From Natronorubrum thiooxidans (GTDB taxonomy: Archaea > Halobacteriota > Halobacteria > Halobacteriales > Natrialbaceae): a DNA stretch of 64,000 nt. The position numbers were made by a program, and so were the translations under genes. The DNA lies in assembly GCF_900156475.1 (NCBI RefSeq), contig NZ_FTNR01000002.1, positions 1 to 64,000 of the forward strand, given 5' to 3'. Numbering within the stretch: position 1 is the stretch's first letter; each line of letters starts with the position of its first letter. Positions 20,434 through 25,884 of the stretch are shown one piece after another. The notes under the pieces are model-generated. The model was given only the letters and a program-made list of their open reading frames with translations, did no database searches and was not told the origin of the DNA.

Positions 20434-22287
20434 ATGAACTGTGATACAACCGACCACGTCGACGGTATCGATCGGCGATCAGTCCTCGCTGCCGCTGGAG
20501 CAGGGCTGTCGTTCTCGCTGAGCGGTTGTGTCGATACCGTCCAAAGCGTCGTCAGCGATGCCGAGGACGACCAAATCTCGTTGTCTCTTGTCACGGTCCC
20601 CGACGATGGCAACAGAGAGACCGTCCGCATTGCACGCCATCTCGAGCAAAACCTCGAGGCGGTCGGTATCGACGTGACCATCGCCTGGCGGTCGCGCTCG
20701 GAGTTCCTGAAGATGGTCCTGATCGATCACGACTTCGATCTGTACGTTGGTCGCCACCCCGCCGACTTCGACCCCGATTTCCTCTACGAGGCCCTCCACT
20801 CCACGTACGCCGAGGAATCCGGCTGGCAGAACCCCTTTCAGTACTCGAATCCAACCTTCTTCGACCCCCTCCTCGAGGAGCAGCGCCGAGCCGACGGCGA
20901 CGAACGGCGCGAACGAATCAAACCAGTCCTGAGAGCACTCGCTGAGGAGAAACCGTTCGATCCGATCTGTCGTCCTGACGAGTACCGCGTCGCCAACACC
21001 CGGTTCGACGGGTGGGGCGATGGCCACCTCGCGACCCGTCGTGGCTATCTCGGCCTCGAATCAGAGGCGGACGCCGAGCGACTACACGCGCTCGTGACCG
21101 ACGCACGACCGTCCCAAAACGTCAATCCGCTCTCGGCGACGGTCGACGAACAGGGAACGATCACCGACTTGCTGTACGACTCCCTTGGAACTCTCGTCGT
21201 CACCGAGGACGACGAGGGAGTGGCCTACGACGTCGAGCCGTGGCTCGCCGCCGAACCCTGGGAGTGGGAACCGACCGACGAGATAGATGCGTCCGAATCA
21301 GTTGCCGAGACGGACGAGACGAAAACGGACGCCGATGGGATGCTGACTGCAACGGTGACGCTCCGAGAGGACTGTACGTTCCACGATGGTGAGCCAGTGA
21401 CCGCCGAGGACGTCGCGTTCACGTACCAGTTTCTCAAGGACACCGCACGCGGCCAATCCGCAAGCCCATCGCCGGCACCACGGTATCGCGGTCAGGTGAG
21501 CGCAGTCGAAAACATCGAGGTCGAAGACGACTATCGGCTTCGGATCACCGTCGATGCTGGCACCGAGGTCGGTGAGCGTGCACTGACGGTTCCGATCCTC
21601 CCCCGACATATCTGGTGGAACGAAATTCAGGACCGAATCGGTGATCTCGAGAACTTCCGGGCACCACAGGGGCGATGGGGACTCGTCGAAACGAACTCGG
21701 TATCGCCGATCGGAAGTGGCCCCTTCCAGTTCGAGAGCCAGTCCGAGCGGACCTATCTGCATCTCGAGCGCTTCGACGACCACTTCTCCCGTCGCGATGA
21801 CGTCGACCTTCCCGAACCGACCGTCGACGAGCTCCGATTCACCGTCGATCCCGGCAGCACCTCCTCTATTTCACGGGTCGAAAGCGGTGACGCCGACGTC
21901 ACATCGTCGCTGCTCGAGGCACACTCGATCAGCGACATTCCGGACAGCTCAGACGTCGAACGTCTCGAATCACCCTCGTGGACGTTCTATCACCTCGGGT
22001 TCAACACCGATTCCGGGCCGTGTAGCAAAACCTCCTTCCGGCAAGCAGTGACGCAGCTGATTGATAAGGAACGGATTACCGAGAAGATGTTTTACGGCCA
22101 TGCGACGCCGCTTTCGAGCCCGGTCACCGACGAGTGGGTCCCCGACGACCTCGCGTGGGACGGCGACGATCCGGTCACTCCCTTCATCGGAACCGACGGA
22201 TCGCTAAACGTTGCAGCAGCACGCGCTGCATTCGAAGCAGCCGGATTCCGGTACGACGATGATGGCCGGCTCCGTGATCGATACTAA
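20434..22287 (+). CDS. circularly permuted family 5 solute-binding lipoprotein, copy 1 (617 aa)
   Basis: A Tat signal (RR at 14-15, hydrophobic stretch) ends in a lipobox LSGC with Cys32, so it is an exported lipid-anchored protein. Residues about 47-205 (ISLSLVTVPDDGNRETVRIA, FDLYVGRHPADFDPDFLYEAL) look like the C-terminal lobe of SBP_5 proteins. From about residue 217 the normal N-terminal part starts (ARPSQNVNPLSAT, later CTFHDGEPVTAEDVAFTY). The protein ends at FRYDDDGRLRDRY, exactly where ordinary SBP_5 proteins continue into the lobe placed here at the front. This is a circular permutation. It is coupled by TAATG to the PAP2 gene. The ligand is unknown; family members bind peptides, but no permease is near. 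Confidence 0.85.
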   Translation: MNCDTTDHVDGIDRRSVLAAAGAGLSFSLSGCVDTVQSVVSDAEDDQISLSLVTVPDDGNRETVRIARHLEQNLEAVGIDVTIAWRSRSEFLKMVLIDHDFDLYVGRHPADFDPDFLYEALHSTYAEESGWQNPFQYSNPTFFDPLLEEQRRADGDERRERIKPVLRALAEEKPFDPICRPDEYRVANTRFDGWGDGHLATRRGYLGLESEADAERLHALVTDARPSQNVNPLSATVDEQGTITDLLYDSLGTLVVTEDDEGVAYDVEPWLAAEPWEWEPTDEIDASESVAETDETKTDADGMLTATVTLREDCTFHDGEPVTAEDVAFTYQFLKDTARGQSASPSPAPRYRGQVSAVENIEVEDDYRLRITVDAGTEVGERALTVPILPRHIWWNEIQDRIGDLENFRAPQGRWGLVETNSVSPIGSGPFQFESQSERTYLHLERFDDHFSRRDDVDLPEPTVDELRFTVDPGSTSSISRVESGDADVTSSLLEAHSISDIPDSSDVERLESPSWTFYHLGFNTDSGPCSKTSFRQAVTQLIDKERITEKMFYGHATPLSSPVTDEWVPDDLAWDGDDPVTPFIGTDGSLNVAAARAAFEAAGFRYDDDGRLRDRY

Positions 22288-23129
22288 TGCTCTCTGAGGT
22301 GCTGACCAGGGTCGTGATCGTCGTCTCGATCCTGCTTCCGATTTCGCTTGGGCTGTTCGTCGGGCGAGAGCGACTCGCGACGACGCGAACGGAGTGGCGC
22401 TCCCGGATTCGGCTATCCGGACCGGCAATTCTCGTCGTCTCGTCCGTCCTGTTGCTCAACCGAACCGTACGGCAGGACGGTCCGGGAATCGGCGTCCATA
22501 TGACTGAGGTGATCCGGAAGATCGAAGGCGAGTTCGTTCTGATCTTTCAGGAAGTGGCGACGCCACAACTGACGGCGTACTTCTCGTTTATTTACATCTA
22601 CGGCTACACGTTCCTGCTGGTCTTCCCGGTCATGGCGTATTTTGCGCTCTCGGACACCAAGATGTTCCGTCGGCTGCTCACTGCGTATGCGTTCAACTAC
22701 GCGATCGGGCTCGTGTTGTACGCACTCGTGATCGCATACGGCCCGCGAAACGTGCTGCCCGAACTGATCGCAAGTTCGGGTTCGGGGACATCAACGATGC
22801 TCTACGACCACAGCCCCGAGTTCAAATATCTGACCCGGGAAGTCAACCGCAACGTCAACGTCTTCCCGTCGTTACACACGTCGCTTTCGGCGACGGTCGG
22901 GATATTTGCCTATCTCACTCGCTCGAGCTATCCGAAATGGCTCCCCGTCGCAATCGTTCTCGCGGTCAGCGTCATCATCTCGACGATGTATCTGGGGCTT
23001 CACTGGGGGATCGACGTCCTCGCAGGGCTGGCGCTCGCATCGTTCTGTGTCGCCCTCTCGTGTCGAATCGTCGGTCGCTGGTCGCTATCGGGGTTGTACG
23101 AGCAACTGACCGAATTCGACCGGTTCTAA
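22287..23129 (+). CDS. PAP2-superfamily membrane phosphatase/phosphotransferase, copy 1 (280 aa)
   Basis: A polytopic membrane protein with about six hydrophobic segments. It carries the PAP2_3-like signatures FPSLHTSLSATVG (core His in place of the classical PSGH) and YLGLHWGIDVLAG (second His and Asp), as in inositol-phosphotransferase/AUR1-type enzymes. These act on lipid phosphates at the outer membrane face. The start ATG overlaps the stop of the binding protein by one base, so the two are co-translated. The same pair is repeated at 23228-25884. The substrate is unknown. Confidence 0.8.
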   Translation: MLSEVLTRVVIVVSILLPISLGLFVGRERLATTRTEWRSRIRLSGPAILVVSSVLLLNRTVRQDGPGIGVHMTEVIRKIEGEFVLIFQEVATPQLTAYFSFIYIYGYTFLLVFPVMAYFALSDTKMFRRLLTAYAFNYAIGLVLYALVIAYGPRNVLPELIASSGSGTSTMLYDHSPEFKYLTREVNRNVNVFPSLHTSLSATVGIFAYLTRSSYPKWLPVAIVLAVSVIISTMYLGLHWGIDVLAGLALASFCVALSCRIVGRWSLSGLYEQLTEFDRF

Positions 23130-23182
23130 GACGGCGTGTACAATGGCCGTAACTGCAGTCTCGGTGTTCAGATCCGCTAACA

Positions 23183-23197
23183 CAATACTGTTATATT
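23183..23197 (+). promoter_or_regulatory. promoter of the second SBP-PAP2 unit
   Basis: CAATACTGTTATATT is 13 of 15 identical to the element at 20391-20405 and lies at nearly the same distance (45 versus 43 bases) from its ATG. So each unit keeps its own promoter. Confidence 0.6.
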
Positions 23198-23227
23198 ACC
23201 GCGAGCGAACTGTAACAAAAGATCGAG

Positions 23228-25039
23228 ATGGGGGATGAACGGATCAGCGCTGGTCGAACTCCCGACGGAGACAGCGCTGTCACCGGCAGTACTGATGGCA
23301 TCAGCCGTCGGGCTGCACTGGCCAGTGCCGTCGGACTAACGGCGTCAACCAGTGGCTGTGTCCGCCAACTGCGTAGCATCGTCAACCGGGACGACATCCA
23401 ACAGCTGTCACTGACGATTACCACCCGTTCTGCGGACGGTGACCGGGAAAGTATCCGGCTCGCTCGAGAGATCGCTGCGACCCTCGAGACCGTCGGGATC
23501 GACGTGTCGATCGAGATGCGATCGAACGAGGAGTTCCTGCGGGCGGTGCTGATCAACCACGACTTCGACCTCTACGTCGGCCAACATCCCGGCGGGATCG
23601 ACCCGGACTTCCTCTACGAAACGCTCCACTCGCTGTACGCCGACGAATCCGGGTGGCAAAACCCCTTTGGCTTTACAAATCTGCTGATCGACGACCGCCT
23701 CGAGGCCCAGCGAGTAGCCGACGGGGACGAGCGCCGTGAAGCCGTTGTGGCGATGCTCGAGGCCATCGCGATCGAACAGCCGTTCGTCCCGATCTGTACC
23801 CCGACCGAGTATCGCCTCGTCAGGGACGATCGGTACGACGGCTGGAGTCGCGGCCATCTCGCGACACGGACGGGCTATCTCGACCTCGAGCCACAGACGG
23901 ACAACAGCGCCGACCGGCTCCGGGTCGTCCACATGGACCCGCGGCCATCAGAGAATCTCAACCCGCTGAACGCGGAGTACCGGGAACAGGGGACGTTCAT
24001 CGACCTGCTGTACGACTCGCTTGCAGTCGAGGTCGTCGCTGCCGACGGCGATCATGCCCTCGAGCCCTGGCTCGCCGAGGGCTGGGAGTGGACCGACGAG
24101 TCGACGCTGCGTCTCGCTCTCCGGTCCGACTGTGCGTTTCACGACGGCGAGCCGGTCACTGCCGATGACGTCGCCTTTACGTATCGCTTTCTCGAGGACA
24201 CTGTGCTCGGAGCCGACGCGTTCCCCGCACCCACACCGCGCTATCGAGGGCGCGTCGCTGCGGTGGACGACATCGACGTGCGGGATGAGACCACACTCGA
24301 AATAACGGTCGGGACGGGCCAGGCAGTCGGTGAGCAGGCGCTGACAGTGCCGATACTCCCCGAGCATCGATGGTCCTCCCGGGCAACGGCTGCAACTGTT
24401 CCCGGCGTTCGCATCGCACAAGGAACGACCGAGGCGGTCGTCACTGACAACATCCCACCGATCGGTAGCGGGCCGTTTCAGTACGACAGCCACAGCGACC
24501 GGGACTACGTGCTGTTCGAGCGCTTCGACGACCACTTCACGCGGCGCGGGTCGGTCGACTTGCCCGAGCCGACCGTCGAGGAGCTACGGATCGGCATCGA
24601 TCCCCGGAGCACGTCGGCGATTCAGTTGCTCGAAGACGACAGCGCCGACGTCACGAGTTCACCCCTCGAGAGCTACGTGATCGAGGATATCGAAGAAACG
24701 GACGCTGTTCGCCCGCTCGAGTCACCCTCGTGGACGTTTTACCATCTTGGGTTCAACGCCCGGTCGGCACCCTTCGGGAACCCGCGATTTCGGCAAGTCA
24801 TCGCCCAGTTGATCGACAAAGCGTGGCTGGTTGACGAGGTGTTCCACGGTCACGCAACACCGATCGCGACGCCGGTGACCGACGAGTGGACCCCGGACGA
24901 CCTCGCGTGGGACGGCGCGGACCCGAAGATGCCGTTTCTGGGTTCGAACGGCGAGGTCGACGTCGATACGGCACGGACGGCGTTCGAGGAGGCTGGGTTC
25001 CGGTACGATGCCGATGGAAAGCTGCGGGTGAGACAGTGA
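23228..25039 (+). CDS. circularly permuted family 5 solute-binding lipoprotein, copy 2 (603 aa)
   Basis: Paralogue of the 20434 protein, with the same order of parts: Tat motif (RR at 27-28), lipobox TSGC with Cys44, and displaced C-lobe at about 58-215 (LINHDFDLYVGQHPGGIDPD, LYADESGWQNPF). The main domain runs from about 228 (PRPSENLNPLNAEYREQGTF, CAFHDGEPVTADDVAFTYRF) to the end FRYDADGKLRVRQ. It lacks the extra acidic insertion of copy 1 near residues 285-300. Stop and next start share one base (TGATG). The two copies are clearly diverged, so the duplication is not recent. Confidence 0.85.
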   Translation: MGDERISAGRTPDGDSAVTGSTDGISRRAALASAVGLTASTSGCVRQLRSIVNRDDIQQLSLTITTRSADGDRESIRLAREIAATLETVGIDVSIEMRSNEEFLRAVLINHDFDLYVGQHPGGIDPDFLYETLHSLYADESGWQNPFGFTNLLIDDRLEAQRVADGDERREAVVAMLEAIAIEQPFVPICTPTEYRLVRDDRYDGWSRGHLATRTGYLDLEPQTDNSADRLRVVHMDPRPSENLNPLNAEYREQGTFIDLLYDSLAVEVVAADGDHALEPWLAEGWEWTDESTLRLALRSDCAFHDGEPVTADDVAFTYRFLEDTVLGADAFPAPTPRYRGRVAAVDDIDVRDETTLEITVGTGQAVGEQALTVPILPEHRWSSRATAATVPGVRIAQGTTEAVVTDNIPPIGSGPFQYDSHSDRDYVLFERFDDHFTRRGSVDLPEPTVEELRIGIDPRSTSAIQLLEDDSADVTSSPLESYVIEDIEETDAVRPLESPSWTFYHLGFNARSAPFGNPRFRQVIAQLIDKAWLVDEVFHGHATPIATPVTDEWTPDDLAWDGADPKMPFLGSNGEVDVDTARTAFEEAGFRYDADGKLRVRQ

Positions 25040-25884
25040 TGCTGGGCCGGGTATTGGTACAACTGGTCGTGGTCGTCATGCTGTTGGTTTTCGTTTCGAC
25101 CGCGCTGTTCGTCGGCCGATCCCGACTCCGAACGACACGGAGTGCGTGGCGACGTCGACTGCGGGCGGCCGCACCGATCACGATCGTTCTCGTCGCCGTC
25201 TTGCTCTTGAATAGCGTCGCCAGACAGATCGTCCCGGACCTCTCGTGGATTATCGACTGGAATCTCACCGATCCGATCCACGACCTTGAGGGGGAGTTCA
25301 TCATCTGGTTGCAGGCACAGGCGACGCCGTCGGTGACGGCGTACTTCTCGTTCATGTATATCTACGGTTACGTCTTCTTGCTGGTGTTCCCCACCATCGC
25401 CTACTTCGCACTCTCGGAGACGCGTCCGCTCCGGGAGCTGTTGACGGCCTACACGCTGAACTACACCATCGGATTGGTGCTGTACGTCTTCGTCATCGCC
25501 TACGGACCGCGAAACGTGATGCCCGAACTCGTCGATGCGCTGTTGTACGACACCTATCCGCAGTATCAACACCTCACGCGACAGGTCAATCGCAATACGA
25601 ACGTCTTCCCGTCGCTGCACACCTCGCTCGCAGTCACTGTTTCCATGCTCGCATATCGCACGCGGGAGCCGTATCCGATATGGAACGTCGTTGCGGCCAT
25701 TCTCGGTGTCTCCGTCGCGATTTCGACCATGTATCTCGGCATTCACTGGGCGATCGACGTCGTCGCCGGCGTCGTCCTCGCATACGTCAGCGTCGAACTC
25801 GCCAGCATCCTCGTCGGGCGCTGGTCAGTTTCGGCGTGGATGGGCAGCCGCACGCTGTCGCTGCGTACGCTTTGGCGGCGCTAA
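25039..25884 (+). CDS. PAP2-superfamily membrane phosphatase/phosphotransferase, copy 2 (281 aa)
   Basis: Paralogue of the 22287 protein, with the same membrane layout and motifs: YFSFMYIYGYVFLLVFP, FPSLHTSLAVTV, YLGIHWAIDVVAG. The start at ATG 25039 overlaps the binding-protein stop, as in copy 1; the longer open frame upstream lies inside that gene. The His and Asp needed for phosphoryl transfer are present in both copies, so both are probably active. Confidence 0.8.
   Translation: MLGRVLVQLVVVVMLLVFVSTALFVGRSRLRTTRSAWRRRLRAAAPITIVLVAVLLLNSVARQIVPDLSWIIDWNLTDPIHDLEGEFIIWLQAQATPSVTAYFSFMYIYGYVFLLVFPTIAYFALSETRPLRELLTAYTLNYTIGLVLYVFVIAYGPRNVMPELVDALLYDTYPQYQHLTRQVNRNTNVFPSLHTSLAVTVSMLAYRTREPYPIWNVVAAILGVSVAISTMYLGIHWAIDVVAGVVLAYVSVELASILVGRWSVSAWMGSRTLSLRTLWRR

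Follow-up and report, generated by a model that had tools for sequence, protein, structure and literature searches.

Two tandem cassettes encode solute-binding proteins paired with PAP2_3 membrane proteins

The window analysed here, a stretch of 64,000 nucleotides from Natronorubrum thiooxidans, contains two cassettes in which a gene encoding a family 5 solute-binding protein (SBP) is followed by a gene encoding a phosphatase-like PAP2_3 membrane protein (Table 1). Both SBP reading frames are real and intact, as the original prediction had given them, and their products share 54.8% identity. An RR motif and an SGC lipobox are present in the two proteins, a pattern found in 54 of 61 genes of the window type. 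In both cassettes the SBP stop codon and the PAP2 start codon share one base, within TAATG (22284-22289) and TGATG (25036-25041), suggesting that the translation of the paired genes is coupled.

Table 1. Features of the two SBP-PAP2 cassettes.
Feature	Coordinates	Strand	Remarks
Permuted SBP_5 copy 1 (617 aa)	20434..22287	+	Tat-type signal, lipobox SGC (Cys32)
Copy 1 relocated segment: C-terminal half of lobe II and last lobe I segment	20572..21066	+	
Copy 1 main part, equivalent to the N-terminal and middle regions of ordinary SBP_5 (residues about 213-617)	21070..22284	+	Pfam 2-284, AppA 63-305
PAP2_3 membrane protein 1 (280 aa)	22287..23129	+	FPSLH and HWGID motifs
Permuted SBP_5 copy 2 (603 aa)	23228..25039	+	Tat-type signal, lipobox SGC
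Copy 2 relocated segment (residues about 57-224)	23396..23899	+	Pfam profile 289-360
Copy 2 main part, equivalent to the N-terminal and middle regions of SBP_5; ends in FRYDADGKLRVRQ	23900..25036	+	Pfam 2-286
PAP2_3 membrane protein 2 (281 aa)	25039..25884	+	Start overlaps SBP stop codon (TGATG)

The order of the SBP_5 segments is swapped in both proteins

A Pfam search of both proteins reported SBP_bac_5 (PF00496) as the sole family, with whole-protein scores (175.9 and 167.8 bits) that satisfy the curated cut-off for family membership (32.4 bits). Mapping the two parts of each protein separately onto this profile outlined a swapped order in both copies. Residues 267-611 of copy 1 and 278-599 of copy 2 correspond to the N-terminal and middle regions of the profile (positions 2-284 and 2-286), and the N-terminal segments, searched alone, match its end (positions 290-360, E 3e-4, and 289-360, E 1e-4, respectively). 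A sequence search against the PDB also returned a reversed order with the AppA chain 1xoc, to which residues 284-557 of copy 1 align at positions 63-305 and residues 30-193 at positions 342-501. Taken with the matches of the fragment in Foldseek, the Pfam and AppA alignments delimit the relocated segment of copy 1 to residues about 47-211. The main part of this protein ends at the cut site GFRYDDDGRLRDRY, and the AGFRYD-DG-L junction forms the end of both chains.

When an HMM was derived from the N-terminal blocks of permuted family members alone, it matched ordinary SBP_5 proteins in their C-terminal part, with scores of 10-53 bits and always behind their main part (33 rows, some of them overlapping stretches of one gene), and it scored at best 3.7 bits on shuffled sequences. 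The collinear order of SBP_5 proteins (N-lobe, middle, C-lobe) is hence not met in either copy, nor in any of the relatives sharing their cut site (type A, see below). No internal repeat or second C-lobe was found in the main part of either window protein, and no double-length intermediates, with two N-terminal or two main blocks per frame, were found among the loci retrieved. Open frames of up to 1056 aa were considered and, judging by where the signal peptide lies, rejected as start-less upstream extensions in high-GC DNA.

These results uphold the original prediction that the usual C-terminal lobe is placed first, after the lipobox, in both proteins, that both chains end at the junction where this lobe would normally continue and that the permutation, being common to the two paralogues, is older than their duplication. 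The prediction would have been refuted if the N-terminal 160 residues constituted an independent non-SBP domain, or if the main domain already contained a complete C-lobe. Neither is the case, given the SBP_5 matches and poor isolated model of the former, and the absence of an internal repeat in chains that stop at the junction.

In a comparison by eye with OppA, the stretch aligned after the FDlYVG.HP motif, where the Asp contacting the amino end of a bound peptide would be expected, appeared variable, with AD in copy 1 and GG in copy 2.

The complete two-lobe fold is predicted from a permuted chain

AlphaFold modelling of the whole chain, using an alignment of 43 sequences, yielded a single compact globular fold (mean pLDDT 90.1, pTM 0.89). 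Confidence fell to a pLDDT of 63.4 and a pTM of 0.44 when the N-terminal block was modelled alone with its own alignment, so that no independent folding is predicted for this block. Even so, Foldseek returned SBP_5 family members, among them NikZ and DppA, as the top PDB matches for the model of this fragment (E values of 2e-3 and weaker). The whole model matched SBP_5 structures over ~425 columns with TM values of 0.4-0.5, in sequential order only; Foldseek cannot follow the changed segment order, and coordinates were superposed exclusively through this program. No solved permuted structure was found, and none of the best 60 PDB chains is collinear with the family profile over its whole length. 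The claim that the fold is complete with its ends moved is thus supported as a prediction, in which the usual two-lobe fold is fully formed and lobe II is built from both chain ends. This arrangement would place the lipid anchor of the haloarchaeal members at lobe II, instead of lobe I.

Permuted proteins are present in haloarchaea and alphaproteobacteria

The extent of the family in other haloarchaea was assessed by counting sampled Halobacteria genomes that contain a homolog of copy 1 (E<=1e-20). Such homologs were detected in 266 of the 391 genomes (about two thirds), covering 71 of 86 genera. A third, distant permuted SBP with a PAP2 neighbor is encoded in the genome of the window itself (contig C11:283871-285592, locus L062). 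An identical cut was also observed in less similar proteins of two further groups: a second haloarchaeal group (Halalkalicoccus, Natrononativus, Halorussus and Haloprofundus) and an alphaproteobacterial one (Roseomonas, Nitratireductor, Ketogulonicigenium and Maritalea), for which tblastn matches were also obtained in Microvirga and Neorhizobium. In these two groups the permuted gene is usually the first of an operon that also encodes two permeases and two ATPases, arranged as SBP-permease-permease-ATPase-ATPase in the Alphaproteobacteria, and genes encoding M28 or M20 peptidases, hydantoinase or creatininase are often found near these transporter-linked operons.

All the permuted loci first examined presented the C-lobe first, a twin-arginine signal and a common end point, usually with a lipobox, and a twin-arginine-like signal with the identical end point was seen in every window-type locus examined. 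The twin-arginine/lipobox pattern was absent from all six bacterial members read. The bacterial distribution derives from plasmid records only, without a chromosome scan, and no permuted members were detected in other classes of the phylum, where the listed matches cover only the main part.

Several alphaproteobacterial permuted SBP_5 genes heading Opp-type operons are plasmid-borne (L067, L068, L069, L070, L074 and L106), and those at L067-L069 have genes for M28 or M20 peptidases and hydantoinase/oxoprolinase in their vicinity. In Natronorubrum bangense, the locus appears with equal match values in both the chromosome record and that of plasmid unnamed1 (L002 and L003), the plasmid stretch also carrying genes such as that for adenylosuccinate synthase; this double occurrence might reflect a chromid, a recent duplication or an assembly overlap.

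A second permutation affects a different site

A distinct permuted form (type B) was identified at locus L100 (5861-7528, minus strand), where protein P0006 places the C-lobe first following a cut before the LL.eAG helix. Its main part ends at Pfam position ~257, compared with ~284 in type A, and L100 groups with ordinary proteins in the tree. The haloarchaeal loci of this type include permuted (L100, L140, L141, L142, L143 and L144) and unpermuted (L133, L136, L138 and L139) representatives. The permuted L140 protein and the ordinary L136 protein show 53% identity in their main parts and 56% identity in the relocated segment, and the L133 protein, also of ordinary order, aligns with the profile uninterrupted. 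Both forms precede like permease-permease-ATPase-ATPase operons, and the event appears recent enough for unpermuted relatives, with 45-55% identity, to persist in this setting. Permuted and ordinary members of type B do not fall into two clean groups in the tree that unites all type A rows (see below), which leaves the number of changes within this type undetermined. Type B resembles the type A proteins of the window in presenting the C-lobe first, a Tat-type lipoprotein signal and a haloarchaeal distribution, but it differs from them in its cut (~257), its position in the tree, its close unpermuted relatives and its invariable location beside permeases.

For phylogenetic inference, the segments of permuted sequences were returned to their usual arrangement before alignment with unpermuted ones. 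In one tree of these re-ordered sequences, all type A rows formed one clade (support 95/91). In a tree based on a different sample, the window branch grouped with an ordinary protein on a long branch and not with the remaining permuted rows (95/78), and a single type A clade was not rejected there (p-AU 0.354). Together with the identical cut site, these data favor one origin for type A, which we consider likely. A single origin for types A and B was rejected (lnL 206 worse, p-AU 0.0002), and it is hence very probable that at least two permutation events have taken place.

The window branch is associated with PAP2_3 proteins

A PAP2_3 gene follows 60 of the 61 distinct window-type genes, 59 of them identified by an automatic rule and the remaining one, the second copy at L001, upon inspection, its SBP and PAP2 frames overlapping through an open frame that starts early. 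A permease was located beside 27 of the 28 other type A genes, and beside none of the 61 window-type genes, although many of these loci had only 1.5 kb of flanking sequence and a distant permease could have been missed. The requirement of a cognate permease and ATPase for an Opp/Dpp importer is thus not met by any window-type gene (0/61). The two PAP2 partners in the window exceed the PAP2_3 profile cut-off (66.6 and 69.0 bits, against 27). They present the catalytic PSxH (here FPSLH) and HxxxD motifs of this family (PF14378), which are kept in 65 of 65 true PAP2 frames, and differ from it in their pairing with an SBP. The active site of PAP2 family enzymes usually faces outward. To our knowledge, no PAP2 enzyme is known to be paired with an SBP, and no report of this association in haloarchaea was found in the open-access literature searched.

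Relationship to known systems

The permuted proteins resemble ordinary family 5 SBPs (OppA, DppA, NikA and AppA) in the sequence family of both parts and in their predicted fold, in being secreted or lipid-anchored and, in the permuted sister branch, in their Opp-type operon. They differ from them in the swapped order, with a cut at profile position ~284/290 and new ends within lobe II, and the window branch also differs in lacking neighboring permeases and in its pairing with PAP2_3. Periplasmic binding proteins that were circularly permuted by engineering, and permuted halves of ribose-binding protein, have revealed that relocated ends are tolerated (PMC9815098), but these are laboratory constructs of other SBP classes, whereas the permutation reported here is natural and old. 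Titles and abstracts in the open-access literature searched returned only engineered permutants or unrelated uses. The claim that no permuted SBP_5 family has been described thus stands provisionally, and a large two-lobe SBP that is circularly permuted in nature appears, with the same proviso, to be undescribed. The original prediction did not anticipate the scale of the phenomenon across haloarchaea and alphaproteobacteria, the second independent permutation or the PAP2 pairing. SBP permutation is widespread, crosses domains and involves at least two events at different sites, and profile-based annotation silently takes the permuted proteins for ordinary SBPs.

Origin and putative function of the permuted proteins

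Sequence comparison shows that the two window proteins are members of an ancient branch of SBP family 5 (type A) that is circularly permuted. In this branch the cut lies just past the conserved eAGy.yd.dG.L helix-turn of lobe II, and a short linker connects the former C-terminus to the former N-terminus. The inferred mechanism would involve tandem duplication, fusion and truncation; a signal peptide would then have been added ahead of the relocated segment. Since permuted proteins head complete Opp-type ABC operons in what would be the older setting, they probably still deliver ligand to a permease, and transporter-linked members hence likely continue to work as SBPs, uptake being inferred from operon context. 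In the window branch, the permease genes would have been lost and each SBP coupled to a PAP2_3 membrane enzyme. The strict pairing with a membrane enzyme whose active site usually faces outward suggests a role beside the PAP2 protein, in which the SBP may capture an extracellular polar ligand or headgroup and present it to the PAP2 active site or, alternatively, sense such a ligand and regulate the enzyme. This functional model is advanced tentatively and leans towards the doubtful side, with both the ligand and the role of the pair being inferred.

Several alternative explanations may be considered. It is possible that the window SBPs are ordinary transport SBPs serving an Opp permease encoded elsewhere, with PAP2 as a merely co-transcribed neighbor. 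The presence in the same genome of other Opp systems with permeases (L063, L064 and L066) and the transporter linkage of the permuted sister branch are consistent with this view, but it is at odds with a PAP2 linkage that extends to 60 of 61 genes from many families, with the codon overlap in the window and with the absence of adjacent permeases. The SBP could also be a lipoprotein sensor or structural subunit that binds ligand and regulates or stabilizes PAP2 without handing over a substrate; that its gene is strictly paired with that of an integral membrane enzyme is compatible with this possibility, but direct evidence for it is lacking. Independent permutation of the window and transporter-linked branches at one site is unlikely: the branches are not sisters in one tree, but they share an identical cut, form one clade in the other tree and do not reject a single clade. 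That the N-terminal ~160 residues constitute an additional domain of unrelated origin preceding a C-terminally truncated SBP is all but excluded, for although this piece alone scores 20-22 bits, under the Pfam gathering score, its HMM matches the C-terminal part of ordinary SBP_5, its Foldseek matches are SBP_5 proteins, and it is modelled poorly alone but with high confidence within the whole chain. An assembly, frameshift or annotation artefact misjoining two half genes can be all but dismissed, as no support for it was found and the order recurs in dozens of independent genomes and in both window paralogues, with intact frames and signal peptides.

The reading of the window proteins as permuted SBPs operating beside PAP2 admits a bolder form. 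By moving the lipid anchor and the free ends to the other lobe, the permutation may have enabled recruitment to the PAP2 enzyme, and the window SBP could conceivably be a substrate-capturing or regulatory subunit of a non-transport SBP-enzyme complex of a kind not described before. The data point to an unexplored two-gene SBP-PAP2 module in most haloarchaea, and the type B pairs provide a natural before/after test of how the position of the chain ends and the anchor affects SBP-permease docking. With regard to the ligands of permuted SBPs, CoA transferase and CoA ester lyase genes lie at locus L073 between the permuted SBP gene and its permeases, a gene order that may hint at an organic-acid ligand.
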